Under the pieces are notes generated by a model, which saw only the letters and a list, made by a program, of their open reading frames with translations, was not told where the DNA came from and made no database searches. The translations under genes were made by a program, and so were the position numbers. A stretch of DNA of 64,000 nucleotides. Origin: Sphingopyxis italica (GTDB taxonomy: Bacteria; Pseudomonadota; Alphaproteobacteria; Sphingomonadales; Sphingomonadaceae). Position 1 is the first letter of the stretch. Each line of letters starts with the position of its first letter. The stretch is from positions 1-64,000 of the forward strand of contig NZ_JAATIT010000005.1 of NCBI RefSeq assembly GCF_011926545.1, written 5' to 3'. This document shows positions 40,564 through 55,595 of this stretch, in pieces.

Positions 40564-40612
40564 AACGGGAATGCCGCCACCAAAAGAGAGCGGTTAAGTG
40601 GGAGGAATGGGG

Positions 40613-43591
40613 ATGCGGGCGTCTCAAAAGCAGTGGCTTGGCAAATTTCTGGCGGGAACTTCGGCGCTGTCGATGATGGGCATGGCGCAGGTCGCGTTCG
40701 CGCAGGACGCGCCGGCCGGCAGCGAAGTGAACGGCGACGAGATCATCGTCACCGGTATCCGCGCCTCGCTCGCCGCGTCGGCCGACATCAAGCGTGAAGC
40801 GCAGGGCGTCGTGGACGCAATTTCCGCCGAAGACATCGGCAAATTCCCTGACACCAACCTCGCCGAATCGCTCCAGCGCATCACCGGCGTGTCGATCGAT
40901 CGGTCGCGCGGCGAGGGGTCGCTGGTCACGGTTCGCGGCTTTGGCCCCGAATTCAACCTGGTGACGGTCAATGGCCGCCAGATGCCGACCTCGTTCCTTG
41001 GCGATGGTGCCAGCGCGCCGGCGTCGCGTTCGTTCGATTTCGCCAACCTCGCGTCCGAGGGCGTGGCCGGGGTCGAGGTGTACAAGAGCGGCCGGGCGGC
41101 GATCGCGTCGGGCGGTATCGGCTCGTCGATCAATATTCGCACGCCGCGTCCGTTCGATCGCCCCGGTCTTCGGGGTAGCATCTCTGCCAAGGCCGTGCTC
41201 GACTCGTCGCGAAATCAGGGCAATCCGATCACCCCCGAAGTATCGGGCATCATCAGCAACACTTTTGCCGACGATACCGTCGGTATCCTGCTCGTCGGAT
41301 CGTATCAGCGGCGCAAGGCGAGCGAGAACAGCTTCAACTCCGACTGGCGCGATGGCTATACCGGCGCCGAAAACAACTGGGGATCGCTGGCGCAGCCGGG
41401 CGACCCGCGCTTCGACAACATCACCAACCGTCCCGGCGCGACCGACGTTTATGAAGTGCCGCAGAACGGTTCCTACAATCTCAACGACATCGACCGCGAG
41501 CGGATCAACGGCCAGGCGGTCTTGCAGATTCGCCCGGCGGACTCGCTGACCGCGACGCTGGAATATACGTTCTCGCAGAACACCGTCGAAGTACGCAACA
41601 GCAACGTGGGCATATGGTTCAACCATAATGACACGAGCAGCGCGTGGACCGACGGACCGATTGCGGGGCCGATATTCTATTCGGAGGCATTCGGCGCCGG
41701 CGAACGCAAGGACTTGGCCTATAGCGGGTCGCTTACCGCTAACCGCAGCGTCAATCATTCGATCGCGGGCAATCTGAAATGGGAAGCGCCCGGCGGCGTG
41801 ACCATGGAACTCGACTATCACCACTCCAGCGCCACATCGAAACCGGCCAACAAATATGGCACCAGCGTGTCGGTCGGCAATTCGGTATTCGGGGTGGCGA
41901 ACCAGCGGATCAATTTCGAAAGCGATCTGCCGGTCATCTCCTATGAGATGTTCCCGGGGATCGACCCGCTCGACGCATCGCTGATCACGCCCACGGGCAA
42001 TGCGTTCCGCAACGCGTATTTCCGCAATGAAATCGATCAGATTCAGCTTCGCGGCAGTTACGACCATGACGGATCGTTCCTCGACAGCATTGATTTCGGC
42101 GTATCCTATATCGACAGCAATGTGCGTTCCGCTTACGGATTTATTCAGAACGAAACCTGGAGCGGCGCGGGACCGGCGTCGGACATTCCCGACGACATCT
42201 TCGAGCAGGTCAGCTTGCCCGACAAGTTCAAGGGCATCGGGGGTTCGAACGATCCGGCGATGATCCAGAGCTTTTACGCGTTCGATTTCGAACGGATGGT
42301 CGATCTGATCGACGGGCTTTACGGCACTTGTAACCGCGCGGGTTCGGCGGATAGCTGCCTTGCCGACTATACGGTCGATCGCCGCCTCAATGAAAAGACG
42401 CTCGCGCCCTATCTTCAGGTGGCGAACAAATTCGACCTGTTTGGCAACCCGGCGCACCTGGTCGCGGGTGTCCGCTATGAGCATACGTCGGTCGACGCGT
42501 CGGCGATCGTTCCCATCCCGAACGGCACGGCGTGGAGCGCCGCGAACGAATTCTATGTGCTCTTTTCGCCGGATAATGACTTTACGCGGTTCAAGGGCGA
42601 CTATGACAATTGGCTGCCCGCGATCGACTTCGACCTCGAGCCGATCGAGAATGTGAAGCTGCGGGCGTCGTACAGTCACACGATCACCCGCGCCGACTAT
42701 GCCAGCCTGCAGGGCGGACGGACGATCGACCAGGGTTTCCGTATCGGCGGGGGCACCGGCAGCCAGGGCAATCCGGGCCTGCTTCCTTATAAATCGAAGA
42801 ATATCGACCTGTCGGCCGAATGGTATTATGCGCCCGCCAGCTATGTTTCGGCAGGCTATTTCCGCAAGAAGGTGTCGAACTTCATCGGGTCACAGCGGGT
42901 CGATTCGACCGCTTTCGGCCTGACGCATCCCGCCTTCGGTCCGCGGTATCGGGCGGCCATCGCGGCGCTGGGGGCCAATGCGGGGGCAAATGACATCCGC
43001 CAGTATATCTTTGACACCTTCCCGGAGACGACCCGGCCGACGGGCGTCGATCCCGCTGGCTACACAACGGGCGACATCCTGGGCGTGGTGGGCGACGACC
43101 TCGTCAATTTCGAGATTGCGACGCCGGTCAACAGCGACCAGAAGGCAACGATCGACGGCTGGGAATTCGCGCTTCAGCACAGCTTCTGGGAAACCGGTTT
43201 TGGGGTGATCCTGAACTATACGATCGTCGATGGCAGCGCGACGTTCGACAACAGCTTGCCGGCGAGCGTGGCGCAGTTTGCGCTGCCGGGGCTCAGCGAC
43301 AGTGCCAATGCGGTCGCTTATTACGACAAGGGCGGGCTGCAGGCTCGCGTCGCATGGAACTGGCGCGACGAGTTTCTGAACACGACCGGCCCGAACCCGG
43401 CCTATACCGAAGCCTATTGGCAGATCGACGCCAGCGCGAGCTATGAGTTCGTGCCCGGACTGACAGGATTTGTGGAGGCGATCAACTTGACCGGCGAAAG
43501 CCGCCGCGTCCATCGGCGGTCGGATAACAATGTGACGTACGCCTCGCCCGGTTTTGCCCGATATGCCGCAGGGGTCCGGTACAACTTTTAA
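40613..43591 (+). CDS. TonB-dependent receptor (Caulobacter/Xanthomonas type)
   Basis: The 992-residue outer-membrane barrel has a signal peptide ending near QVAFA, a TonB-box-like EIIVTGIRAS, a plug domain (AISAEDIGKFPDTNLAESLQ, TVRGFGPEFNLVTVNGRQ) and a C-terminal strand ending in RYNF. This subtype (TIGR01782) usually imports oligosaccharides. ATG 40613 has ggaggaatgggg upstream; earlier GTG/ATG codons are less well placed. The locus context suggests beta-glucan uptake. Confidence 0.93.
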   Translation: MRASQKQWLGKFLAGTSALSMMGMAQVAFAQDAPAGSEVNGDEIIVTGIRASLAASADIKREAQGVVDAISAEDIGKFPDTNLAESLQRITGVSIDRSRGEGSLVTVRGFGPEFNLVTVNGRQMPTSFLGDGASAPASRSFDFANLASEGVAGVEVYKSGRAAIASGGIGSSINIRTPRPFDRPGLRGSISAKAVLDSSRNQGNPITPEVSGIISNTFADDTVGILLVGSYQRRKASENSFNSDWRDGYTGAENNWGSLAQPGDPRFDNITNRPGATDVYEVPQNGSYNLNDIDRERINGQAVLQIRPADSLTATLEYTFSQNTVEVRNSNVGIWFNHNDTSSAWTDGPIAGPIFYSEAFGAGERKDLAYSGSLTANRSVNHSIAGNLKWEAPGGVTMELDYHHSSATSKPANKYGTSVSVGNSVFGVANQRINFESDLPVISYEMFPGIDPLDASLITPTGNAFRNAYFRNEIDQIQLRGSYDHDGSFLDSIDFGVSYIDSNVRSAYGFIQNETWSGAGPASDIPDDIFEQVSLPDKFKGIGGSNDPAMIQSFYAFDFERMVDLIDGLYGTCNRAGSADSCLADYTVDRRLNEKTLAPYLQVANKFDLFGNPAHLVAGVRYEHTSVDASAIVPIPNGTAWSAANEFYVLFSPDNDFTRFKGDYDNWLPAIDFDLEPIENVKLRASYSHTITRADYASLQGGRTIDQGFRIGGGTGSQGNPGLLPYKSKNIDLSAEWYYAPASYVSAGYFRKKVSNFIGSQRVDSTAFGLTHPAFGPRYRAAIAALGANAGANDIRQYIFDTFPETTRPTGVDPAGYTTGDILGVVGDDLVNFEIATPVNSDQKATIDGWEFALQHSFWETGFGVILNYTIVDGSATFDNSLPASVAQFALPGLSDSANAVAYYDKGGLQARVAWNWRDEFLNTTGPNPAYTEAYWQIDASASYEFVPGLTGFVEAINLTGESRRVHRRSDNNVTYASPGFARYAAGVRYNF

Positions 43592-43624
43592 GCGGTGCGC
43601 GGGTCCGCCGCTTTCATAACAAGG

Positions 43625-43654
43625 GAGCCGCGCCCGGACGGGCGTGGCTCTTTT
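43625..43654 (+). terminator. Intrinsic terminator after the TonB receptor
   Basis: An 11-bp stem (43625-43635 with 43640-43650, one G-U pair) with a ggac loop is followed by TTTT. It separates the receptor transcript from the halogenase operon, or allows partial read-through. Confidence 0.8.
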
Positions 43655-43688
43655 GCGTGACGCGGGCGATATGCTAGGTCGGACGGCA

Positions 43689-45224
43689 ATGAATGAAGCG
43701 ATCGAGAGGGTTGTCATCGTGGGCGGCGGGACCGCCGGCTGGTTGACGGCGGCGCGGCTTGCCAGTTCGCCGCGAGCGATGGCGGGCCGGCTTTCGGTCA
43801 CGCTGATCGAGGCGCCCGATATTCCGACGATCGGCGTCGGCGAGGGCAGCTGGCCGACGATGCGCGCGACGCTGGCGGCGATCGGGATTGGCGAGAGCGA
43901 ATTTCTCGCCGCGTGCGACGCTTCGTTCAAGCAGGGGTCGCGGTTCGACGGCTGGGTCACCGGCGCGGCGGACGATCGCTACCTGCATCCCTTCACCGCG
44001 CCGCCCGCCGCGCCGACGGCCGAATTGCTCGCGGCATGGCGCTCGGGCGCTCCCGACCTGTCGTTCGCCGCGGCGATGACGCCGCAGGCGCATGTCTGCG
44101 ACCTGGACCTTGCGCCCCGTCAGCGGACGATGCCCGATTATCAGGGCGCGGCGAACTATGCCTATCATCTCGATGCCGGGAAGTTCGCGGCGCTGCTCGC
44201 GCGCCATGCGGTCCAGAAGCTGGGCGTGCGGCATATTCCGGATCATGTCACGGCGGTCGGTCCTGACGGCGCCGGCGGGATTGCGTCGGTCGCGACGCGC
44301 CAGAACGGCGCGATCGAGGGCGACCTGTTCATCGACTGCACCGGCCATGCGTCGCTGCTGATCGGCGGGCATCTGGGCGTCGAGTGGGTCGATCGCGGCG
44401 ACACGCTGTTCAACGACCGCGCGCTCGCGGCGCAGGTGCCGGTGGTGCCGGGCGGCCCGATCGCGTCGCAGACTATATCGACCGCGCACGAAGCGGGCTG
44501 GATCTGGGACATCGGCCTGCCCGATCGCCGCGGCATCGGCTGCGTCTATGCGAGCCGCTTCATGGAGGATGAGACGGCGGAGGCGGTGCTGCGCGCCTAT
44601 ATCGCGCGCGTGCTGCCGGGTGCACCCGAGGTGCCGGCGCGGCGGCTGAGCTTCCCGACCGGGCACCGCGCCCGCTTCTGGGAAGGCAATTGCATCGCGA
44701 TCGGCCTGTCGGCGGGCTTCATCGAGCCGCTCGAAGCTTCGGCGATCGTGATGATCGAATTGTCGGTCGATGCGCTGATCGACAATTTCCCCGCGAGCCG
44801 CGCGGCCTTGCCGATCCATGCGGCGCGGTTCAACGAATTGTTCGGCTATCGCTGGGACCGCATCGTCGAGTTTCTGAAGCTGCATTATGTGCTCAGCCGG
44901 CGCGCCGAGCCCTATTGGCTGGCGCAGCGCGAGGCGGCGCATGTCCCGCCAAGGCTGGCCGAGATGCTGGCGCTGTGGCGCGACCAGCCGCCGTCCGCTT
45001 GGGACTTCCCGCGCGTCGACGAGATTTTCTCCGCCGAGAGCCATCAATATATCCTCTATGGCATGGGCTTTCCGGTCCCCGCCGATCTGCCGCCCTGCGA
45101 ACGTGCGGCGGGCCTGCTCGCCGACAACCACCGGCGCGCCCGGTCGCTCGCCGCGGCGCTGCCCGCCAATCGCGATTATCTGGATGCGCAGCGACCCGGC
45201 GCCCCTGCCACCGCTGCGTTTTAA
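43689..45224 (+). CDS. Tryptophan halogenase family protein, divergent
   Basis: The 511-residue protein has a flavin-binding GGGTAGW (13-19), the halogenase-type Lys in ASFKQGSRF (K81), FIDCTGH and [15 protein letters not shown] with a conserved Glu. The usual WxWxIP motif appears as GWIWDIGLP, with the Pro displaced. Classical members chlorinate or brominate indoles using FADH2, halide and oxygen. The start at 43689 opens the FAD fold directly. It is first of a seven-gene overlapping operon. Halogenation is not proven; another flavin chemistry is possible. Confidence 0.85.
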
Positions 45225-45236
45225 GAAAGCTATTTG

Positions 45237-45956
45237 ATGACCCGCCACGCCGTCCTCGACAACAAGGCCCACAACGACCTGCGCATCCGCACCGACGCGG
45301 CGGCGGAACTCGGCGACGACATCATGGCGACGCTGACCGTGCCGAGCGAATTCCGGCGCGTGCAGGCGCATTTCCCGATCCTGTTCCGCCGCGAAACGGG
45401 GCGCGACGATTTTACCGCGCTGGCGATGTTCGGGTTTCAGAACGGCGAGAATCTGTTCCTTGAAGGCACGCGCTGGGACGCCGGCTATCGCCCGCTGTCG
45501 CTTGCGATCGGGCCGTTCCTGATCGGGCGTCCGGCGGGCGGCGAGGGGCCGGGGCAGGTCCATATCGACATGGAGCACCCGCGCATCGCCGGGGGCGGCG
45601 AGGGGGTCCGGCTGTTCGACGAGAATGGCATGGCGACACCCTATCTGGACGAGATTGCCGAGCGGCTCGGCGACCTCGACGAAGGCTATCGCGAGAGCCG
45701 CGCCTTCTATGACGCGCTGCTCGCCTATGACCTGCTCGAACCCTTCAGCCTCGAAGTCACGCTCGACGATGGCTCGGTCAACTCGCTCGTCGGCTTTCAC
45801 ATCATCGACGAGGCGAAGCTGCGCGCGCTGGATGCCGAGGCGCTCGGTGCGCTGCACGCGGCGGGGCATGTGATGCCGATGTTCATGGCGCTGGCGTCGC
45901 TGTCGCAGCTCTCGGCGCTCGTCGCGCGCAAGAATCGCAGGCTCGGCGGTGGCTGA
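45237..45956 (+). CDS. SapC family protein
   Basis: The 239-residue protein matches SapC (PF07277): FRRVQAHFPILFRRETGRDDFTALAMFGF near the N-terminus and the late NSLVGFHIIDEAKLRAL. SapC was named from a Campylobacter S-layer locus. In alphaproteobacteria it typically neighbours tryptophan-halogenase and TonB receptor genes, with unknown function. No signal peptide is visible. It starts 12 bp after the halogenase stop. Confidence 0.88.
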   Translation: MTRHAVLDNKAHNDLRIRTDAAAELGDDIMATLTVPSEFRRVQAHFPILFRRETGRDDFTALAMFGFQNGENLFLEGTRWDAGYRPLSLAIGPFLIGRPAGGEGPGQVHIDMEHPRIAGGGEGVRLFDENGMATPYLDEIAERLGDLDEGYRESRAFYDALLAYDLLEPFSLEVTLDDGSVNSLVGFHIIDEAKLRALDAEALGALHAAGHVMPMFMALASLSQLSALVARKNRRLGGG

Positions 45957-46980
45957 ACAAGGCGGCGCCTTTACCGACCGCCTGGCGCGGGTGCCCGAGC
46001 GCGAATGGGATAAGCGGGCGGGGCCGGACGCGTTGCTGGAAGGCGCGCGCGAGCCCTTTGTCCTGCGTGGGCTTGTCGCCGACTGGCCGCTGGTCGAAGC
46101 GGGCAAACGCTCGGCGCGCGACGCGCGGCGCTATTTGCTCGATCATGCGCGCGACCGTCCGTTCAAAGTGTCGATCGGCGCGCCGGGCCATGACGGGCGA
46201 TTGTTCTACGATGCCGAGATGGAGATGAATTTCCGGGTCGGCACGGGCAAGCTCGCCGACATCTTCGGCGGTATCGACAAGGCCGAGGGACAGGGCGAGG
46301 CGCGCACCGTCTATCTCGCCTCGATCGACATTCCGTCGCATTTCGACGGGCTCGACGACGCGAATCCGATCGAGCTGGGCGACCGCGATCCGCTGAAGAG
46401 CATCTGGATGGGCACGCGCACCAGGATCGCCGCGCATAACGACTTTCCCGACAATCTCGCCTGTTGCGCGGTCGGCCGTCGGCGCTTCACGCTGTTTCCG
46501 CCGCACCAGTTCCGCAACCTCTATCTGGGGCCGATCGACCACACGCCGGCGGGCCGCGCGGTGAGCATGGTCGATTTCGATGCACCCGACCTCGCCGCGC
46601 ATCCGCGCTTCATCGACGCGATGGCGGAGGCACAGACGGTGGAGCTTGAGCCCGGCGACGCGATCTTCATCCCGTCGATGTGGTGGCACCATGTCGAAGG
46701 GCTCGCCGACTTCAACATATTGGTCAATTACTGGTGGCGCCGCACGCCCGCCTGGCTGGGCCAGCCGCAGGTCGCGCTTAACCACGCGATCCTCGCGATC
46801 CGCGACCTGCCGCCCGAGGACAAGGCGATCTGGCGCGAGCAGTTCGACCATTATGTGTTCGAGAATGACGAGCAGGTCACCGACCATATCCCCGAAAAGG
46901 CGCGCAGCATATTGGCGCGGCTCACCCCCGAAAGCGCCGGACGCCTGCGCGCTTTTCTTTTGAGGACACTCAGCCGATGA
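45949..46980 (+). CDS. Cupin-like JmjC-domain protein
   Basis: The 343-residue protein resembles the cupin_8/JmjC fold: PFVLRGLVADWPLVE at the start, the metal pair in AAHNDFPDN (H and D), FTLFPPHQFRNLY, and the distal His in IPSMWWHHVEGL. Such proteins are Fe(II)/2-oxoglutarate dioxygenases, often hydroxylases; the substrate is unknown. The GTG start is 8 bp inside SapC and its end overlaps the next halogenase by 4 bp. Confidence 0.87.
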   Translation: MAEQGGAFTDRLARVPEREWDKRAGPDALLEGAREPFVLRGLVADWPLVEAGKRSARDARRYLLDHARDRPFKVSIGAPGHDGRLFYDAEMEMNFRVGTGKLADIFGGIDKAEGQGEARTVYLASIDIPSHFDGLDDANPIELGDRDPLKSIWMGTRTRIAAHNDFPDNLACCAVGRRRFTLFPPHQFRNLYLGPIDHTPAGRAVSMVDFDAPDLAAHPRFIDAMAEAQTVELEPGDAIFIPSMWWHHVEGLADFNILVNYWWRRTPAWLGQPQVALNHAILAIRDLPPEDKAIWREQFDHYVFENDEQVTDHIPEKARSILARLTPESAGRLRAFLLRTLSR

Positions 46981-48479
46981 ACGAGAATAAACGGGTCCAG
47001 CGCATCGTCATCGCGGGCGGCGGCACTGCGGGCTGGATGGCGGCGGCCGCGATCGCGCGCACGCTGGGGCCGGCGGTCGACCTGACGCTCGTGGAGTCCG
47101 AAGCGATCGGGACGATCGGCGTCGGCGAATCGACGATCCCGCCGCTGGTCAATTTCAACCGCATCCTGCGCATCAACGAAGCCGATTTCATGCGCGCGAC
47201 GCAGGCGACCTTCAAGCTCGGCATCTTGTTCGACGACTGGAAGGATCTGGGGACGCAATATTTCCACAGTTTCGGCCTGACCGGGAAGGATCATTGGTCG
47301 GCGGGTTTCCAGCATTTCTGGCTCTATGGCCGGACCAAGGGGCACGAACAGCCCTATGACGATTATTGCATGGAGTTGAAGGCGGCGCTGGAGGGCAAGT
47401 TCGCGCATTTGCCCGACGACAGGATGAATTATGCCTATCAGCTCGATTCGGGCCTCTATGCGCGCTTCTTGCGCGGAATGGCCGAGGTCGACGGGACGAA
47501 GCGGATCGAGGGCAGGATCGCGCGCGTCGAACTCGATGGGGAGAGCGGCGATATCGCGGCGCTCGTCCTCGACGGCGACCGGCGGATCGAGGGCGATCTG
47601 TTCATCGATTGCACGGGGTTCCGCGCGCTGTTGATGGAGGGCGCGCTCCACGCCGGGTTCGACGACTGGACCCACTGGCTGCCGTGCGACAGCGCGATCG
47701 CGCTGCAGACGCCGAACGTCCATCCGCCGGTGCCCTATACGCGCGTCATGGCGCACGACGCGGGCTGGCAATGGCGCATTCCGTTGCAGCACCGCACCGG
47801 CAACGGCATCGTCTATTGCAGCCGCTATCTGGACAAGGACGCGGCGCTCGACCGGTTGCTCGGCAATATCGAAGGCGAACCGCTGACCGAGCCCAATGTC
47901 CTGCGCTTCACCGCGGGCACGCGGCGGCACCAATGGTATCGCAATTGCGTCGCCGTCGGTCTGTCGGCGGGTTTCATGGAGCCGCTGGAATCGACCGCGA
48001 TCCACCTGATCCAGAGGTCGGTGCTGCGTTTCATCCGCATGTTGCCGGCGGGAAGGGTGAGTGAACGCGATATCGCCGAGTATAACGAGCAGCAGATGCA
48101 GGACATGGTCCAGATCCGCGATTTCCTCGTCCTCCACTATAAGGTCACCAACCGCCGCGACAGCCCGTTCTGGCGTCATTGCGCGGCGATGCCGATCCCC
48201 GATACGCTGGCGCAGAAGATCGAGCTGTTCCGCGAAACGGGGCGCGTGTTCCGCAAGAATGAGGAATTGTTCGCGGAGAATAGCTGGGTGCAGGTGATGA
48301 TGGGGCAGGGAATCGAGCCGCAAAGCTGGCACCCGATCGCCGAAAAATTGCGCGACGACGAGCTTGCGCGGCTGCTCGAAACGATCCGCGGCGAGGTGCG
48401 CCAGACGGTCGACAGCCTGCCCGCGCATCAGGACTATGTCGCCCGTTATTGCGGCGCGGCGGTCCCGCAAGCGGCCTGA
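46977..48479 (+). CDS. Tryptophan halogenase family protein, canonical motifs
   Basis: The 500-residue protein has AGGGTAGWM, the Lys in ATFKLGILF, GWQWRIPLQ (canonical WxWxIP) and GLSAGFMEPLESTAI with the active-site Glu. All residues known to matter in PrnA/RebH-type halogenases are present. It is about as long as its divergent partner at 43689. A Brevundimonas enzyme of this type (BrvH) has been reported to brominate indole. The natural substrate in glycan loci is unknown. Confidence 0.9.
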   Translation: MNENKRVQRIVIAGGGTAGWMAAAAIARTLGPAVDLTLVESEAIGTIGVGESTIPPLVNFNRILRINEADFMRATQATFKLGILFDDWKDLGTQYFHSFGLTGKDHWSAGFQHFWLYGRTKGHEQPYDDYCMELKAALEGKFAHLPDDRMNYAYQLDSGLYARFLRGMAEVDGTKRIEGRIARVELDGESGDIAALVLDGDRRIEGDLFIDCTGFRALLMEGALHAGFDDWTHWLPCDSAIALQTPNVHPPVPYTRVMAHDAGWQWRIPLQHRTGNGIVYCSRYLDKDAALDRLLGNIEGEPLTEPNVLRFTAGTRRHQWYRNCVAVGLSAGFMEPLESTAIHLIQRSVLRFIRMLPAGRVSERDIAEYNEQQMQDMVQIRDFLVLHYKVTNRRDSPFWRHCAAMPIPDTLAQKIELFRETGRVFRKNEELFAENSWVQVMMGQGIEPQSWHPIAEKLRDDELARLLETIRGEVRQTVDSLPAHQDYVARYCGAAVPQAA

Positions 48480-49423
48480 TGCGCGGCGTCGCCTTTCTGG
48501 CACTGACCATGGCGTTCGCCGGCGTCGCCGATGCGCGCGAGCCCGCGAAGGGCGGCTGGCGGCTCGTCTGGTCGGACGAGTTCGATGGAAGCGTGATCGA
48601 TCGCGGCAAATGGGATTTCGACGTCGATTGCTGGGGCGGCGGAAATAGCGAGCGCCAATGCTATACCGATCGGCCCGCCAATGCGGCGATCGAGGACGGC
48701 AAGCTGATCATCACCGCGCGCAAGGAGGCGATGACCGGACCCGCCTTTCCGCTGTCGCAGCGCGGCGATCCTGAAAAGGCGAAGGCGGAGGCGACGAAGC
48801 CGTTCACCTCGGCGCGGCTTGTCACGCGCGGCAAGTCGGCGTGGACCTATGGCCGGATCGAGGTGCGCGCGAAGCTGCCGCAAGGGCAGGGGATTTGGCC
48901 CGCGATCTGGATGCTGCCCGAGACTAATCATTACGGCGGCTGGGCGGCGTCGGGCGAGATCGACATATTGGAGGCGGTGAACCTCGGCGTGCGGTGCGAC
49001 GAGTGCGCGGGCGGGATCGAGAACCGCATTCTCGGCACGCTGCATTTCGGCGGGCAATGGCCGGACAATGTATATAAGGGCGACGAGACCGCGCTGCCGG
49101 CGCCGCTCGACGGTTTCCATATCTTCGGCATCGTCTGGGAAAAGGGCAAGATCGTCTGGACGGTCGACGGCAAACCCTATGCGACGCGCGTCGCGAGCGA
49201 GTGGACGACGAGCGGGTCGAGCGATCCCGCGGCGCCGTTCGATCGGCCCTTTCACCTGATCCTGAACCTCGCGGTCGGCGGCGGGCTCGCCGAGGGGCGC
49301 GGGCTGAAGGGTGTCGATGAAAAGGGTTATCCGAAATTTATGGAAATAGATTGGGTTCGCGTCTGGCAATGCGGCGGCGATGGCGTTAGCGATTGCGGCA
49401 CCACGGGGGATCAAGACAAATAA
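48479..49423 (+). CDS. GH16 beta-glucanase (laminarinase-like)
   Basis: The 314-residue protein has a signal peptide (VAFLALTMAFAGVADA), then a GH16 jelly-roll with WSDEFDGSVID, the nucleophile motif GEIDILEAV (E-I-D-x-x-E), and WDFDVDCWGG, GIWPAIWMLPETN. GH16 enzymes cleave beta-1,3/1,4-glucans or related galactans by a retaining mechanism. With GH3 nearby, laminarin-type beta-glucan is the likeliest substrate. The start overlaps the halogenase stop by 1 base. Confidence 0.92.
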   Translation: MRGVAFLALTMAFAGVADAREPAKGGWRLVWSDEFDGSVIDRGKWDFDVDCWGGGNSERQCYTDRPANAAIEDGKLIITARKEAMTGPAFPLSQRGDPEKAKAEATKPFTSARLVTRGKSAWTYGRIEVRAKLPQGQGIWPAIWMLPETNHYGGWAASGEIDILEAVNLGVRCDECAGGIENRILGTLHFGGQWPDNVYKGDETALPAPLDGFHIFGIVWEKGKIVWTVDGKPYATRVASEWTTSGSSDPAAPFDRPFHLILNLAVGGGLAEGRGLKGVDEKGYPKFMEIDWVRVWQCGGDGVSDCGTTGDQDK

Positions 49424-50484
49424 TGGGGCGTCGGCGGCAGTCGGTCACGATCAAGCATGTTGCAGCCGACGCGGGCGTGTCGCTGCAGACGGTGAGCCGC
49501 GTCATCAACGACGAGCCCAACGTCCGGCCCGAAATGAAGGAGCGCGTCCAGGCGTCGATCGACAAGCTGGGCTATGTGCCGTCGATCGCGGCGCAGCGGA
49601 TGAGCGGATCGCGATCCTATCTGATCCTCGCGATCAACGACCGCGAGCGCACGATCGCCGACTGGCAGGGGCGGCAGGGGGTCGACTGGGTCGACCAGAT
49701 GCTGCTCGGCGGGATGCTGAAATGCGCCGAATATGGCTATCGCATGATCTTCGAACTGGTCGACACGCATAACGACCATGTCGAGCGCGAATTGCGCGCG
49801 GCGATCGCGGCGCTCCAGCCCGACGGGGTGATCCTGACCCCGCCGCATTCGGACAACCCCCTGATCGTCGGGCTGCTCGACCAGCAGAAAATCCCGTTCG
49901 CGCGCATCGGGTCGCGCGGCGGCGCGGCGGGAATCGCGCTGACGATGGACGACGAGGGATCGGCGCGGCGCGCGACGCGGCACCTGATCGACCTGGGCCA
50001 CAAGCGCATCGGCTTTATCGCGGGATCGCCCGAATATAGCCTCAGCCGCTGGCGCATCGACGGGTGGAAGGGCGAGATGGGGGGCGAGAGGCTGGCCACG
50101 GACGGGCTGCTCGTCGAGGGCGATTTCACCTTTGCGTCGGGCGCCGCCGCCGCGCGGCAGTTGCTGGATCGTGCGAACCCGCCGACCGCGATCATCGCGA
50201 GCAGCGACCAGATGGCGCTCGCGACGCTGGAGGTCGCCCGCGACAGGGGCCTGGGCGTGCCCGATCAACTCTCGATCGTCAGCTTCGACAACACGCCCGT
50301 CGTGCGCTTCACCCAGCCGGCGCTGACCGCGGTCGACCAGTCGGTCGCCGAGACCGCGTCGCGCGCGGTCGAACTGATCATCGCGGCGCAGCGCGGCGCC
50401 CCGCGCCCGACCGAGCCGACGCGCGTGCGGGGCGGATTGGTTCTGCGCGGCTCGACCGCCGCGCCGGCGGTCGCCCATGGCTGA
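49423..50484 (+). CDS. LacI family transcriptional regulator
   Basis: The 353-residue repressor has an N-terminal helix-turn-helix (TIKHVAADAGVSLQTVSRVI) with hinge helix (PSIAAQRMSGSRS), followed by a periplasmic-binding-protein-like sugar sensor (SIVSFDNTPVVRFTQPALTAV). Family members bind AACGTT-centred palindromes, matching sites at 40532-40563 and 51727-51740. It is encoded inside the operon it probably controls. The inducer is likely a glucose-containing sugar. Confidence 0.94.
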   Translation: MGRRRQSVTIKHVAADAGVSLQTVSRVINDEPNVRPEMKERVQASIDKLGYVPSIAAQRMSGSRSYLILAINDRERTIADWQGRQGVDWVDQMLLGGMLKCAEYGYRMIFELVDTHNDHVERELRAAIAALQPDGVILTPPHSDNPLIVGLLDQQKIPFARIGSRGGAAGIALTMDDEGSARRATRHLIDLGHKRIGFIAGSPEYSLSRWRIDGWKGEMGGERLATDGLLVEGDFTFASGAAAARQLLDRANPPTAIIASSDQMALATLEVARDRGLGVPDQLSIVSFDNTPVVRFTQPALTAVDQSVAETASRAVELIIAAQRGAPRPTEPTRVRGGLVLRGSTAAPAVAHG

Positions 50485-51670
50485 CGGGGCCGCAGCGCGG
50501 CGCCAGTCTCTCCCGTTCCTGGTCCTCTATGCGCTCGCCTGGGCAGGCGGGGCGATCGCCTATGTCCCGTTTCTGACGATCTGGCTGCCGTCACGGATGA
50601 CCGAGCTCGCCGGATCGGCCGATATCCAGACCCTGGGCTATGTCACCTTCTTTGGCGCGATCGCGGCGAGCGCCGGGGGCATCGTCTTCGGCTGGCTCAG
50701 CGACCGCACGCATAGCCGGCGTGCATGGGTGCTCGCGGGGCTGGTCCTCAGCATCGCCTTGCTGATCCTCGTTCCGCTGGCGGAGGATGTCTGGACGCTC
50801 GTCGGCATCATCATCGCGTGGCAACTCGCGCTCAACATGATGCTCGGGCCGCTCGCCGCCTGGGCGGGCGACTGCGTCCCCGACGATCAAAAGGGGCTGC
50901 TCGGCGGGCTGCTCGCTTTCTCGCCCGCGCTCGGCGCCTGGTCGGGCGCGCTCGTGACCTGGCCGGGACTGGTCGCGGGCGAGAGCCGCCTGATCGTCAT
51001 CGCGCTGCTCGTCGCGGGGGCCGTGCTTCCGGTCCTGCTGTTCGGCCGCCCGCGCGCTTTTCCGGAGCTGACCGCGCCCCCCGCACGCGCCGTCGATGCG
51101 CCGCCGCAGCGCCCGAGCGGGCCCGCGGTACGGATGTGGCTCGCACGCCTGCTCGTCCAGATCGCGGAGGCGGCGCTGTTCGCCTATCTCTATTTCTGGT
51201 TCCGGTCGATCGATCCCGATATGCAGGACAATGAAAAGGCGCGCATTTTCGGGATCGCGCTGACGCTCGCGGTGCCGATCGCGCTGGCGAGCGGCCGCTG
51301 GGCCGACCGTAACGATCGGCCCTTCCTGCCGCTCGTCGTCAGCGCGGCGGTTTCGGCGGCGGGGATGGCCGGCATGGCGCTGGCGACCGAGCTCGATCTG
51401 GCGAAGGCGAGCTACCTCGTCTTCGGCGTCGCGACGACGGTCTTCCTGTCGCTCCATTCCAGTCAGACGCTGCGCATATTGCCGCGTTCGGACCGGCGCG
51501 GTCGCGATCTCGGCATCTTCAACCTCACCAATACGGTGCCGTCGCTGATCATGCCCTGGCTGACCATTTCGCTCGTCCCCGGCTTTGGGTTCGACGCGCT
51601 TTTCCTGTTGCTTGCCGGGCTGACCATGATCGCGATGCTGCTGCTCGCGACGATGCCGCGCCCGCGCTGA
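50477..51670 (+). CDS. MFS sugar transporter (GPH/SLC45-like)
   Basis: The 397-residue membrane protein has about twelve helices. FGWLSDRTHSRRAWVLAG after the second helix matches the GxLSDRTxSR loop of the GPH/SLC45 sugar carriers. It probably imports a di- or oligosaccharide product of the locus. It starts 8 bp inside the lacI gene. Confidence 0.85.
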   Translation: MADGAAARRQSLPFLVLYALAWAGGAIAYVPFLTIWLPSRMTELAGSADIQTLGYVTFFGAIAASAGGIVFGWLSDRTHSRRAWVLAGLVLSIALLILVPLAEDVWTLVGIIIAWQLALNMMLGPLAAWAGDCVPDDQKGLLGGLLAFSPALGAWSGALVTWPGLVAGESRLIVIALLVAGAVLPVLLFGRPRAFPELTAPPARAVDAPPQRPSGPAVRMWLARLLVQIAEAALFAYLYFWFRSIDPDMQDNEKARIFGIALTLAVPIALASGRWADRNDRPFLPLVVSAAVSAAGMAGMALATELDLAKASYLVFGVATTVFLSLHSSQTLRILPRSDRRGRDLGIFNLTNTVPSLIMPWLTISLVPGFGFDALFLLLAGLTMIAMLLLATMPRPR

Positions 51671-51726
51671 TCCCGCCCTGAACAGATTGCTTGATTTCAT
51701 TTGGCCGCTATGCGACACGAAATCTT

Positions 51727-51740
51727 GATAACGTTCACAT
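51727..51740 (+). promoter_or_regulatory. LacI-type operator before the GH3 gene
   Basis: gataacgttcacat is identical to 40550-40563 and lies 20 bp before the GH3 start. A possible promoter ttgctt (51687) / tatgcg (51709) with 16-bp spacing precedes it. Confidence 0.65.
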
Positions 51741-51760
51741 TATGAGGGATGGGAGAGACG

Positions 51761-54241
51761 ATGCGCCGACAGGCAATGGTGATCGCGACCGCGCTGCTGA
51801 TCGCGGGAACCGCAATGGCAGCGACGCAGGACGCAGGCGAGGCCGCGGCCGTTCATCCCGACCTCTGGCCCGCGGCGAAGAGCCCCGCCGCCATCACCGA
51901 CGCCGCGACCGAGGCGCGCATCGACGCGCTGATGAAGAAGATGACGGTCGAGCAGAAGGTCGGCCAGCTGATCCAGGGCGATATCAGCACGATCACGCCC
52001 AAGGACCTCGAAACCTATCCGCTCGGCTCGATCCTCGCCGGCGGCAACAGCGGGCCCAACGGCAATGAACGGTCGAGCGCGGCCGACTGGGCGAAGCTCG
52101 TCGGCGAGTTTCGCGCCGTCTCGATGAAACCGCAGGCGAATGGCGTCGCGATCCCGATCATTTTCGGGGTCGATGCGGTTCACGGGCACAACAATATCCC
52201 CGGCGCGACGCTGTTCCCGCACAATATCGGGCTGGGCGCGGCGCGCGATCCCGAGCTGATCCAGCGCATTGGCGCGGTCACCGGCGCCGAAATCGCGGGC
52301 AGCGGCATCGAATGGACCTTTGCGCCGACGCTCGCGGTGCCGCAGGATCTGCGCTGGGGGCGGAGCTATGAGGGATATGCCGCCGATCCCAAGCTCGTCG
52401 CCGATTATGCGACGGCGATGGTGCTCGGGCTGCAGGGGCCGCTCGTCGCGGGCAAGACCGTCGATGCGCAGCACGTTGCCGCGACCGCCAAGCATTTCCT
52501 CGCCGATGGCGGGACGTTCGAGGGCAAGGATCAGGGCGATGCCAAGATCGACGAGAAGGAGCTGATCGCGAAGCACGCCATGGGCTATCCCGCCGCGATC
52601 GACGCCGGCGCGCTGACGGTGATGGCGAGCTTTTCGAGCTGGCAGGGGGTCAAGCATCACGGCAACAAGGGGCTGCTCACCGACGCGCTCAAGACGAAGA
52701 TGGGGTTCGAGGGCTTCGTCGTCGGCGACTGGAATGGCCATGGGCAGGTCGCGGGGTGCAGCGTCACCGACTGCGCGCAGTCGATCAACGCGGGGCTCGA
52801 CATGTTCATGGCGCCCGACAGCTGGAAGGGCCTCTATGAAACGACGCTGAAGCAGGCGAAGGACGGGACGATCCCGGTCGCGCGCCTCGACGATGCGGTG
52901 CGGCGCATCCTGCGGGTGAAATACAAGCTCGGCCTGTTTCCCGAGGGCCATGTCGACCGCAGCGTCGTGAAGGCGGTCGGAACGCCCGAGCATCTGGCGG
53001 TGGCGCGCGAAGCGGTGGCCAAGTCGCTGGTGCTGCTCAAGAACAACGGCAGCGTCCTGCCGGTCAAGCCCGGCGCGCGGGTGCTCGTCACCGGGCCGGG
53101 TGCCGACAATATGGCGATGCAATCGGGCGGCTGGACGATCAGTTGGCAGGGCACCGACGTCGTGCGCTCCGACTTCCCGAACGGGCAGACGATCTGGGAA
53201 GCACTCGACAAGTCGGTGCGTGACGCGGGCGGCGTTGCGACGCTCTCCGAGGGCGGCGTCTTCAAGGAAAAGCCCGACGTCGCGATCGTCGTGTTCGGCG
53301 AGGCGCCCTATGCCGAGTTCCAGGGCGACGTCGCGACGCTCGATTATCAGCCGACCGAAGCGAGTGATCTGGCGACGCTCAAGAAGCTGAAGGCGGCGGG
53401 GATTCCCGTCGTCGCGCTCTTCCTGTCGGGGCGACCGATGTTCACCAATCCCGAGATCAATGCCGCCGACGCCTTCGTCGCGGGCTGGCTGCCGGGCTCG
53501 CAGGGCGCCGGCGTCGCCGACGTGCTGATCGCGGGCAAGGATGGCAAGACGGTGCGCGGCTTTACGGGCACGCTGCCTTTCGCCTGGCCCGCCGATGCGC
53601 GCTCGCCGGTCGAAAAGCCGCAGTTCGCGGTCGGCTACGGGCTGAAATATGGTGCGACGACGACGGTGCCGCAGCTTTCGGAAGAGCTGGGCGTCGATAT
53701 TTCGGCGGCGCTGAACGTCGAGAATTTCTTCGCGGGCGGCCGCGCGCGGTCGCCGTGGGTGCTCTCGATCACCGACGCGGGCGGCAAGCGCCCGGTCGAA
53801 TCGGCACCGATCGAGAGCCCCGGCGGCATGATCGCGGCGCGCTCGGTCGACGTGCGCGCGCAGGAGGATGGCAAGTCCTTCGTCTGGACCGGTCCCGCGA
53901 CGCTCGAACTGACGGGCCCCTATGCCGACCTGTCGCGCCAGCTGAACAACAGCTTCGCGCTGCGTGTCGACTGGCGGATCGATGCGGCCGGCACTGCGCC
54001 GGTCAGCCTCGCGCTCGGCGGCAGGGCGTTCGACGTTTCGGCGGCGGTCAAGGCGGCGGCGCAGGGGCAGGTTTCGACGATCAAGGTGCCGCTACGCTGC
54101 TTCGCCGATGCGGGGGCCAATCTGCGCCAAATCGACAATGCGGTGACGGTCAAGGCCGACAAGGGCTTCGCCGCGACCCTGTTGAATACGAATGTCGAGG
54201 CCGTCGGCGAGAATCTGCCTTGCCCGCCCGCCGCAAAATGA
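51761..54241 (+). CDS. GH3 beta-glucosidase (ExoP-like)
   Basis: The 826-residue protein has a signal peptide (VIATALLIAGTAMA), the two GH3 domains with KVGQLIQGDIS, VDAVHGHNN, ATAKHFLADGG and the nucleophile Asp in GFVVGDWNGH. A C-terminal beta domain (last ~170 residues) resembles the extra domain of ExoP-type glucan hydrolases and may bind polysaccharide. It releases glucose from beta-glucan oligomers in the periplasm. ATG 51761 follows gggagag. Confidence 0.94.
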   Translation: MRRQAMVIATALLIAGTAMAATQDAGEAAAVHPDLWPAAKSPAAITDAATEARIDALMKKMTVEQKVGQLIQGDISTITPKDLETYPLGSILAGGNSGPNGNERSSAADWAKLVGEFRAVSMKPQANGVAIPIIFGVDAVHGHNNIPGATLFPHNIGLGAARDPELIQRIGAVTGAEIAGSGIEWTFAPTLAVPQDLRWGRSYEGYAADPKLVADYATAMVLGLQGPLVAGKTVDAQHVAATAKHFLADGGTFEGKDQGDAKIDEKELIAKHAMGYPAAIDAGALTVMASFSSWQGVKHHGNKGLLTDALKTKMGFEGFVVGDWNGHGQVAGCSVTDCAQSINAGLDMFMAPDSWKGLYETTLKQAKDGTIPVARLDDAVRRILRVKYKLGLFPEGHVDRSVVKAVGTPEHLAVAREAVAKSLVLLKNNGSVLPVKPGARVLVTGPGADNMAMQSGGWTISWQGTDVVRSDFPNGQTIWEALDKSVRDAGGVATLSEGGVFKEKPDVAIVVFGEAPYAEFQGDVATLDYQPTEASDLATLKKLKAAGIPVVALFLSGRPMFTNPEINAADAFVAGWLPGSQGAGVADVLIAGKDGKTVRGFTGTLPFAWPADARSPVEKPQFAVGYGLKYGATTTVPQLSEELGVDISAALNVENFFAGGRARSPWVLSITDAGGKRPVESAPIESPGGMIAARSVDVRAQEDGKSFVWTGPATLELTGPYADLSRQLNNSFALRVDWRIDAAGTAPVSLALGGRAFDVSAAVKAAAQGQVSTIKVPLRCFADAGANLRQIDNAVTVKADKGFAATLLNTNVEAVGENLPCPPAAK

Positions 54242-54287
54242 CAAGACCGGGCGCGGGATAGCCAGAAAACAGGGTTGGGAGAGAGAC

Positions 54288-55595
54288 ATGGCATTGGCGC
54301 CGAGTGTTGCGACGAGTGTGGACCCGGGTGCGGCCGAACAGCCGGGCAAGGGAGGGGGCGGCACCAAGGTCGTGCTGATCCTCGCCTTTGCGGTGTTTTT
54401 CCTGCTCGGCGGGGTGACGAACATCAACGACCTGCTGGTCGGCAAATTCAAGCCGATGTTCCATTTGACGCATGCCGAGGCGAACCTCGTGCAGATGGCG
54501 TTTTTCATCGCCTATGGCGCCTTTTCGATCCCCGCCGGCATCATCATGTCGAAGCTCGGTTATATCCGCACCTTCGTGCTCGGCTTCATCATCGTGGCGG
54601 CCGCCGCATTCCTGTTCATCCCGGCGTCGGCGGCGGCGTCCTACCCCGGATTCCTCGCGGCGCTCTTTTGCATCGGCGCGGGGATCACGGTTTTGCAGGT
54701 GGCGATGAATCCGGTGATCACGACGCTGGGTCCGGTCGAAACCTCGCACAGCCGGCTGACCTTTGCGCAGGCGTTCAATTCGATCGGCGTGTTCCTGATG
54801 GTCTATGGCGGCGCGGCCTTCCTGCTCGGCGATGAGCAGCCGATCGATGCCGAGACCTCCACCGAGGCGCAAATTCAGGCCTATCGCGTCGCCGAGGGGG
54901 CGTCGATCGGCACCGCCTATATGTGGCTCGGGGTGCTGATGCTGGTGATCGCGGCGGTGTTCTGGATGTACCGGTCGGCGATCGACCACGCCAAGACCGA
55001 CGCCGTGAAGCTCGAGGGCACCTGGGGTTTGTTGACCCACAACCGCCGCGTCCAGTTCGGCGCGCTGTGCATCTTCGTCTATGTCGGCGCCGAAGTGGCG
55101 ATCGGTTCGAACCTGATGGCCTATCTCGCCGAGCCCAGCGTGATGGGACTGGGGCTCCAGGCGGCGGGCAAGCTGGTCGCGATGTACTGGTTGGGCGCGC
55201 TGGTCGGCCGGTTGCTCGGCGGCTTCATCCTGCGGCTGGCCAAGCCGGGTCGCGTGCTCACGACCTTTGCGGCGGGCGCGATTTCGCTGATCATCCTGTC
55301 GGCGGTGACGGCGGGTGCGCTGTCGGGTTGGGCGCTGATTCTGGTCGGCTTCTGCAATTCGCTGATGTTTCCGACGATCTTCAGCCTCGCGACCGAAGGG
55401 CTCGGCGAACGGACGCCGCAGGGATCGGGCATCATGTGCACCGCGATCATCGGCGGAGCGATCGTCCCGTTTCTGTTCGGAACGGTGGCCGACCTCAGCG
55501 GCGACATCCGTCTCGCGCTGGCGGTCCCGCTGATCTGCTATGCGATCATCGCGAGCTTCGGCCTGTGGACGGCGGCGCGTCCGGCGACGGCGTAA
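54288..55595 (+). CDS. FHS-type sugar MFS porter (glucose/galactose-like)
   Basis: The 435-residue membrane protein has the FucP/GGP pattern: GGVTNINDLLVGKFKPMFHLTHAEANLVQMAFFIAYGAFSIPAG is split over the first two helices, and NPVITTLGPVE follows later. It likely imports glucose or a related hexose by H+ or Na+ symport, fitting the glucose released by GH3. gggagagagac precedes the ATG. It starts 46 bp after GH3. Confidence 0.9.
   Translation: MALAPSVATSVDPGAAEQPGKGGGGTKVVLILAFAVFFLLGGVTNINDLLVGKFKPMFHLTHAEANLVQMAFFIAYGAFSIPAGIIMSKLGYIRTFVLGFIIVAAAAFLFIPASAAASYPGFLAALFCIGAGITVLQVAMNPVITTLGPVETSHSRLTFAQAFNSIGVFLMVYGGAAFLLGDEQPIDAETSTEAQIQAYRVAEGASIGTAYMWLGVLMLVIAAVFWMYRSAIDHAKTDAVKLEGTWGLLTHNRRVQFGALCIFVYVGAEVAIGSNLMAYLAEPSVMGLGLQAAGKLVAMYWLGALVGRLLGGFILRLAKPGRVLTTFAAGAISLIILSAVTAGALSGWALILVGFCNSLMFPTIFSLATEGLGERTPQGSGIMCTAIIGGAIVPFLFGTVADLSGDIRLALAVPLICYAIIASFGLWTAARPATA

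Follow-up and report, generated by a model that had tools for sequence, protein, structure and literature searches.

Flavin-dependent halogenases of the Xcc4156 and BrvH type have an open active site and refuse free tryptophan (Trp), and their native substrates are not known, according to the published reports. There, the open site of Xcc4156 is attributed to short loops and its authors suggested peptides as substrates, and the BrvH paper similarly suggested larger substrates or peptides. Flavin enzymes that act on Trp within a polypeptide have also been described: QhpG, the flavoprotein peptidyl-tryptophan dihydroxylase of quinohemoprotein amine dehydrogenase, dihydroxylates in-protein Trp, and MibH and a leader-guided brominase of ribosomally synthesised and post-translationally modified peptides (RiPP; PMC10286304) are reported to be halogenases acting on peptide Trp. 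Here we describe a 64,000-nucleotide stretch of Sphingopyxis italica (contig NZ_JAATIT010000005.1, positions 1 to 64,000; hereafter the window), in which two halogenase genes, HalA and HalB, stand with a SapC gene and a cupin gene immediately behind the gene of a TonB-dependent receptor (TBDR). Comparative analysis suggests, with a probability that we put at about one in two, that the halogenases, SapC and cupin form a protein-modification module dedicated to the receptor.

All genes of this run lie on the plus strand, with start sites taken from our own codon-usage gene caller. The TBDR, the proposed substrate of the module (40607..43591, 994 amino acids; TIGR01782, TonB-Xanth-Caul, 595.6 bits, cut-off 310), is followed after 97 bp by HalA, a flavin-dependent halogenase of the 2pyx/9ltb type (43689..45224; PF04820, E 1.7e-114). 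Next come SapC (45237..45956, from ATG 45237 with TTG 45234 as alternative start; PF07277, E 1.3e-60), the cupin, a Cupin_8/JmjC FIH-like 2-oxoglutarate oxygenase (45949..46980; PF13621, E 2.7e-67), and HalB, a flavin-dependent halogenase of the Xcc4156/BrvH type (46977..48479; PF04820, E 3.5e-183). HalA and SapC are separated by 9 or 12 bp, depending on the SapC start, while SapC and the cupin overlap by 8 bp and the cupin and HalB by 4 bp. The four genes, order and spacings reported in a preliminary description of this DNA match the gene calls and Pfam assignments, and the receptor is part of the same unit as the halogenase genes. The order TBDR-HalA-SapC-Cup-HalB is found again in Sphingopyxis, Croceicoccus and Erythrobacter, and its recurrence argues that the arrangement is not due to chance. 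A precursor peptide encoded in the operon was considered and rejected, there being no space for one between receptor and HalB; no wider search was made.

The linkage between halogenases and receptors is well supported by gene neighbourhoods. In 12 genomes, picked for halogenases or several SapC genes and not at random, and with six weak fragment rows left out, 69/82 PF04820 genes had a TIGR01782 receptor within 9 kb versus about 4.6 expected at random placement, and 31/82 had one within 500 bp versus about 1.1 expected. A halogenase within 9 kb was found for 41/87 TIGR01782 receptors. The neighbourhood survey called for in the preliminary description has thus been run, and the tie between glycan TBDR loci and the halogenase, SapC and cupin genes proved to be conserved. 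The genome of the window itself has nine PF04820 genes, eight of them in four receptor loci and one alone in a suf-like context (by eye), and 18 TIGR01782 receptors above cut-off, four of which have an adjoining halogenase. Across the order, a PF04820 match at E 1e-40 was present in 198/296 genomes (best five candidates per genome scored), and across the phylum a HalB relative at E 1e-60 was present in 15/200 genomes, both inside and outside the class of the window. Among the 26 loci from the phylum search (L160-L185) the module adjoins a receptor in 22; the receptor is two or three genes off in L170 and L172, and none was seen in L176 and L183. No further shared non-enzyme gene was found in the annotated loci, where genes matching a reference set were named.

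Receptors were labelled by their direct module neighbour (91 linked, 40 unlinked, 11 ambiguous left out), and after a 70% identity filter 62 linked and 35 unlinked receptors were placed on a tree. The linked receptors form three main clades (win, mal and chi) and two small groups (win2 and c4). The win clade comprises the window-type receptors, with win2 as a sister pair, the mal clade those of GH13/GH97 loci and the chi clade those of GH18/GH20, GH97 and other loci, and each main clade includes genomes from beyond the window's class. The linked/unlinked label changes five times on the receptor tree versus a minimum of 22 in 1000 label shuffles, which ignore relatedness and show congruence rather than an exact probability. 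The lone unlinked receptor inside a linked clade, L172, has its HalB as the third gene downstream. The HalB tree mirrors the receptor clades, with three changes of receptor-clade label versus a shuffle minimum of 24 for 81 HalB, including nine of a degenerate clade termed HalX, and again three versus 24 for the 72 clear-label HalB without HalX. L059 and L135, for which the codon-usage model gave no gene calls, were left out. The 22 win modules consist of SapC, cupin and HalB in 10 cases, with HalA in addition in eight and of other combinations in four; HalB stands alone in 14 of the 16 mal modules; and the 20 chi modules contain one to four active HalB, with HalX in 10 and a cupin in nine.

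The run in the window continues behind HalB with profile matches to a GH16 hydrolase (48479..49423), a LacI-family regulator (lacI, 49423..50484), an MFS carrier (50477..51670) and a GH3 enzyme (51776..54241), and closes with GluP, a glucose/galactose-type MFS carrier (54318..55595; TIGR01272 above cut-off), so that TBDR-HalA-SapC-cupin-HalB-GH16-LacI-MFS-GH3-GluP form an uninterrupted plus-strand run from 40607 to 55595. TBDR, hydrolases, carrier and sugar regulator are thus present together, as in the TBDR-based carbohydrate utilization (CUT) loci, and GH16 and GH3 predict a laminarin-type glucan as the cognate glycan. A further plus-strand open reading frame of 730 amino acids (59372-61564), with a TonB-receptor-like start (by eye), lies outside the unit studied.

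Co-inheritance of module and receptor is independent of the glycan: halogenases of this kind occur in beta-glucan loci, in starch-type loci (GH13/GH97) and in chitin-type loci (GH18/GH20), the glycosidase labels being mostly by eye, with GH20, GH18, GH97, GH13 and carriers profile-confirmed for L042, L043, L044 and L269. In two loci, L174 and L210, the window glycan set GH16-LacI-MFS-GH3 (LacI 67 and 69% identical to that of the window) stands beside a chi-clade receptor and a single HalB, with no HalA, SapC or cupin; the L174 HalB groups with chi HalB and the L210 HalB is 78% identical to it. This combination of window glycan enzymes with a chi receptor and chi-type HalB suggests that the module follows the receptor lineage and not the glycan. 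An unlinked receptor of the window genome (L069) is also found near LacI and GH3. Two loci of another make-up, L184 and L185, carry receptor-HalA-SapC with a sodium:solute symporter (in L185 a like-sized gene, by eye), and a GH42-like gene in L184 and a glycerol kinase-like gene in L185 (both by eye) possibly mark a galactosyl-glycerol locus.

These data bear on an alternative in which the enzymes act on an aromatic small-molecule metabolite (indole or phenol) imported or made during glycan use, and lie near the receptor because of common regulation and joint transfer. Free indole and indole derivatives are reported to be brominated in vitro by BrvH and Xcc-type relatives, and the halogenase genes do lie in an operon-like run with uptake genes. 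We nevertheless consider this alternative unlikely, as the enzymes are common to loci for three glycan types and a swap of glycan enzymes leaves the match between HalB clade and receptor clade intact. Moreover, indole turnover by BrvH is low and BrvH is without free-Trp-binding residues, as stated in its description. No secondary-metabolite protein was present among the ten proteins of the run that were profile-scanned, no cluster-finding program having been applied; the ten comprise the receptor, carriers, hydrolases, the regulator and the module proteins, which is not the content of a biosynthetic cluster. Among the targets put forward in the preliminary description, the receptor stands as one candidate, and a glycan-associated aromatic does not, because the enzymes occur with several glycan types and, where the glycan enzymes are constant, still go with the receptor clade (L174, L210). 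Its remark that known halogenases belong to secondary metabolism has to be qualified, since Xcc4156 and BrvH, the closest relatives of HalB, lack a known native substrate and peptides had already been suggested for them. The joint multi-step oxidation that it envisaged is not required either: many loci show that SapC, cupin and HalA can be separated from HalB, and one halogenase-free genome, G115, retains SapC and cupin.

Modification of receptor Trp is proposed because the receptor is the steady partner across three clades and one additional receptor family while the glycan enzymes differ, and because the halogenases belong to an indole-acting family with open-site structures, QhpG provides a precedent and Trp is over-represented in the linked receptors. 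Trp as the target is suggested by a few natural cases. Among clade-specific invariants, a category chosen after seeing the data (at least 95% within a linked clade and no more than 20% among the 70 receptors not in the clades), Trp accounts for 2/17 in mal, 4/29 in win and 3/12 in chi, or 9/58, versus 0/30 (Fisher p 0.025) in control clades, which were three smaller, unlinked clades of 5 to 7 members scored for fully invariant columns present in at most 20% of all other receptors. L159, L168b, L184/L185 and the c4 pair were left out of this count.

The window receptor gave an AlphaFold2 model with a mean predicted local distance difference test score (pLDDT) of 86.5 and has six clade-invariant Trp, at 258, 337, 518, 643, 739 and 919, all of which except Trp739 are predicted to lie on the extracellular side, as judged from strand order and secondary structure and not from coordinates. 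Trp337 (plus-strand codon 41615..41617, as for all that follow on the same strand), at the extracellular end of a barrel strand, is conserved in 22/22 members of the clade and 8/70 receptors outside the halogenase clades and is Tyr in the halogenase-free relative L217; it is the best single candidate target. Trp258 (41378..41380), in an extracellular-side loop, is present in 21/22 and missing in L217, and is a second candidate. The remaining four are retained in L217: Trp518 (42158..42160; extracellular-side loop) and Trp919 (43361..43363; extracellular strand end), each in 22/22 of the clade, 20/20 of chi and 12/70 outside, Trp643 (42533..42535; extracellular-side hairpin), in 21/22 and 0/70, and Trp739 (42821..42823; periplasmic side), in 21/22 and 36/70. 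Several other markers were tried. Loop Trp as a simple sign of linkage was dropped, its frequencies of 73% in linked versus 12% in unlinked receptors in a small set having become 69% versus 31% in a larger one. At least one W-G dipeptide occurred in 58/63 linked versus 40/74 unlinked receptors, which was not relied on since the sequences are related and differ in composition. A search for residues tracking HalA alone inside the win clade returned no Trp and scattered positions only.

Receptors from genomes without halogenases provide a further comparison. Twenty-five genomes had no real halogenase match, comprising three with none and two with a weak fragment only (all candidates scored) and 20 with none among the best five candidates scored. 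They yielded 38 placeable receptors, two fragments having been dropped, two rows without loci left unplaced and G175 excluded. Thirty-six of these fall outside the linked clades, one falls in win and one in mal, and each of the latter two is without two clade-conserved Trp. A search with the window receptor was positive in 1/25 genomes. The locus of the win member (G115, L230) contains TBDR, cupin, LacI and a SapC with its frame intact, and no HalA or HalB match. This receptor breaks 6/125 win invariants, two of them Trp, the equivalent of Trp258 being a gap and that of Trp337 a Tyr. With no GH16 or GH3 in the vicinity, the ligand may have changed too. The persistence of cupin and SapC without halogenases in G115 suggests that these two may perform a separate step on the receptor. 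The mal member (G001, L269) lies in a receptor-GH13-GH13-GH97 locus with LacI and a carrier and no HalB; its GH13/GH97 enzymes are about 60-70% identical to the set of the window genome, and the receptor has lost both mal-clade Trp, with three Trp in the whole protein.

Trp is a common sugar-stacking residue, and the loop Trp might serve glycan binding only, with the halogenase modifying some other partner of the receptor, such as TonB, a lipoprotein or an unlinked protein, and the correlation between halogenase and Trp arising as a by-product of shared ancestry. The location of five of the six win-clade Trp on the extracellular side, by our own reading of the model, and the strong clade structure would fit this explanation. 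It is also unlikely, given that the halogenase-free G001 retains GH13/GH97 yet is without both Trp, and that no other non-enzyme gene was shared among the annotated loci, as far as genes of the reference set go.

Both halogenases of the window retain residues used in catalysis. PF04820 scores are 383.7 bits for HalA and 610.1 bits for HalB (cut-off 21). The best structural match of HalB is Xcc4156 (6y1w; E 8.2e-201, near full length), followed by 9luq and then BrvH (6frl; E 9.5e-137), and HalA matches 9ltb (E 8.4e-214) and 2pyx (E 9.2e-142). HalB residues 5-499 align to Xcc4156 with a single one-residue gap, which falls outside both loop regions named in the Xcc4156 paper, and HalB can thus be classed as an Xcc4156/BrvH-type enzyme with short loops and a predicted open active site. 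HalB has the motifs GxGxxG, the catalytic lysine (Lys) and glutamate (Glu), and WxWxIP (as WQWRIP); HalA has WIWDIG in place of WxWxIP, with the last residue different, and retains the catalytic Lys (K79 of PrnA) and Glu (E346), as does HalB. Both residues are kept in 171/183 aligned proteins of the halogenase family (126 HalB and 45 HalA), and the remaining 12 are one degenerate clade, HalX, in which Lys is lost in 12/12 and Glu in 11/12. Retention outside this one dead clade favours halogenation as the activity, and catalysis by the module enzymes is probably under selection. The HalX proteins (L042:8913-10376, L044:8342-9817, L089, L091, L097, L104, L157, L175, L177, L206, L208 and L212) are degenerate paralogues that adjoin an active HalB, occur chiefly in loci with receptors of the chi type and resemble a dead partner subunit. 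A separate clade consists of stand-alone HalA-like halogenases without a receptor neighbour, at G000:C3:230393-231772 (L045), in L192 and in L194, the first of them near suf-looking iron-sulphur genes (by eye).

Fresh water and soil hold little bromide, which is one point in favour of hydroxylation, rather than halogenation, of receptor residues by HalA and HalB, after the manner of QhpG. HalA and HalB do match the QhpG NCBIfam profile weakly, with 38 and 31.9 bits, far under the equivalog cut-off of 240, and QhpG acts on protein Trp, as its description states. The retention of the Lys and Glu associated with hypohalous acid in all but the degenerate clade, together with bromination by the nearest studied relatives, makes hydroxylation quite unlikely. 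It is highly improbable that the module genes are passengers of glycan loci with no link to receptor function, as might be supposed from the one genome that retains receptor, SapC and cupin without both halogenases, because catalytic residues are retained inside and beyond the class and the association holds in three receptor clades and another receptor type.

The accessory proteins vary between clades. SapC is present in the module of 21/22 win-clade and 2/2 win2 receptors and of 0/38 others. Its AlphaFold2 model is confident (pLDDT 94.8), and against the PDB there was no match by sequence, while Foldseek gave 0.67 as its best E and VIA-align no Z reaching 2, making it a candidate new fold. 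The cupin matches the JmjC core of FIH (E about 1e-18), with the HxD...H iron triad retained in 59/59 aligned sequences and Arg179 in 58/59. Some SapC is found in 196/199 genomes of the family, and the window genome has a second, core-type SapC (G000:C2:248680-249336, L041) that is about 26% identical to that of the module. Core-type SapC adjoins an FAD-linked oxidase (PF01565/PF02913) in 8/11 annotated loci; this neighbour was considered as a clue to the role of SapC, and no clear role emerged. DUF6445 (PF20043) is found within or near some modules (L162:8844-9527, L183:11601-12305, L191:637-1311).

For receptor modification, the following sequence of events can be proposed. No signal peptide is visible at the starts of HalA, SapC, cupin or HalB (by eye, no predictor), and the four proteins are taken to be cytoplasmic; they would act there on freshly synthesised TonB-dependent receptor that has yet to be exported or is just being exported. 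With FADH2, O2 and a halide, probably bromide, HalB (joined by HalA in modules that have it) would halogenate Trp whose final position is on the extracellular side, in the barrel and its loops. Another residue of the receptor would be hydroxylated by the FIH-like cupin, and SapC might be a substrate-binding or holding subunit for its receptor clade. The modified residues would then adjust how the receptor captures glycan, how stable it is or how well it is protected.

A number of observations weigh against such a process. The support for modification is entirely comparative, modification of an outer-membrane protein in the cytoplasm prior to export would be unusual, and the relatives of HalB that have been measured are reported to be active on small indoles, BrvH weakly. 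Thirteen of the 82 halogenase genes lie away from TIGR01782 receptors, one stand-alone HalA-like gene included, with two of the 13 adjoining another receptor family, OMP_b-brl_4 (L092, L191). The Trp258 column is Trp in 33/70 receptors outside the halogenase clades, single-column Trp enrichment over all linked versus unlinked receptors is much weaker (the 69% versus 31% given above), and the frequency of Trp in sugar stacking means that the loop Trp may serve glycan binding alone. In L184 and L185, which have HalA and SapC and no HalB, the Trp258 and Trp337 columns are kept and the Trp518 and Trp643 columns are lost, so no single rule fits HalA and HalB. The sample contains only two halogenase-free members of linked clades; the chances calculated for them, 0.027 for at least two of six Trp among the broken columns of G115 and 0.021 for G001, are values of about 0.02-0.03 that apply to columns picked with the data in view and to sequences that are not independent. 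Furthermore, the G115 receptor retains four of the six clade Trp, and the G001 receptor is basal and diverged, with 16/107 conserved columns broken. The sister of the latter, L168b, is beside HalB yet without both Trp, and the halogenase-free status of G001 relies on the best five candidates scored and on the locus itself.

If receptor halogenation does occur, it would explain why native substrates of BrvH and Xcc4156 have not been found, and would add halogenation to the protein modifications of bacterial surface receptors, with a bearing on the uptake of algal and plant glycans. Co-inheritance would name a substrate class, the adjoining TBDR, and specific residues for an orphan branch of halogenases, and SapC, a family unmatched in the PDB, gains a possible partner in the receptor through its link with the module. 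The wider proposition, that Proteobacteria halogenate Trp of their own TBDR glycan receptors before export in a widespread and clade-matched manner, with FIH-like hydroxylase, SapC and dead halogenases as variable accessories, is tentative, and we hold it to be somewhat doubtful.

No description of a receptor-linked halogenase/SapC module was found in the open-licence PMC literature, among the matches listed, and subscription papers or supplements could hold one. In term searches, 'halogenase' and 'SapC' were absent from the main text of the founding paper on CUT loci (PMC1790865), its supplement tables being outside the search, and the main texts of the papers on BrvH and Xcc4156 and of the survey of flavin-dependent halogenases did not contain 'TonB'. 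Each enzyme of the window belongs to a known family, and the receptor-linked module would be the new part. The locus resembles CUT loci in bringing together TBDR, regulator, inner-membrane carrier and glycoside hydrolases. The cupin shares the JmjC core and iron triad with FIH and JMJD5/JMJD7, and differs from these in being bacterial. HalA is a strong match to the putative tryptophan halogenases of PDB 2pyx and 9ltb. Both HalA and HalB resemble QhpG, a flavoprotein acting on protein Trp, through a weak profile match, whereas QhpG hydroxylates and lies in another gene context. The substrates of MibH and of the PMC10286304 brominase are small secreted peptides or engineered fusions, in contrast to the outer-membrane receptors proposed here. 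The closest likeness is to Xcc4156 (6y1w) and BrvH (6frl), which HalB matches with the same motifs, in the case of Xcc4156 over nearly its full length; unlike these enzymes as published, HalB is set in a module linked to a receptor.

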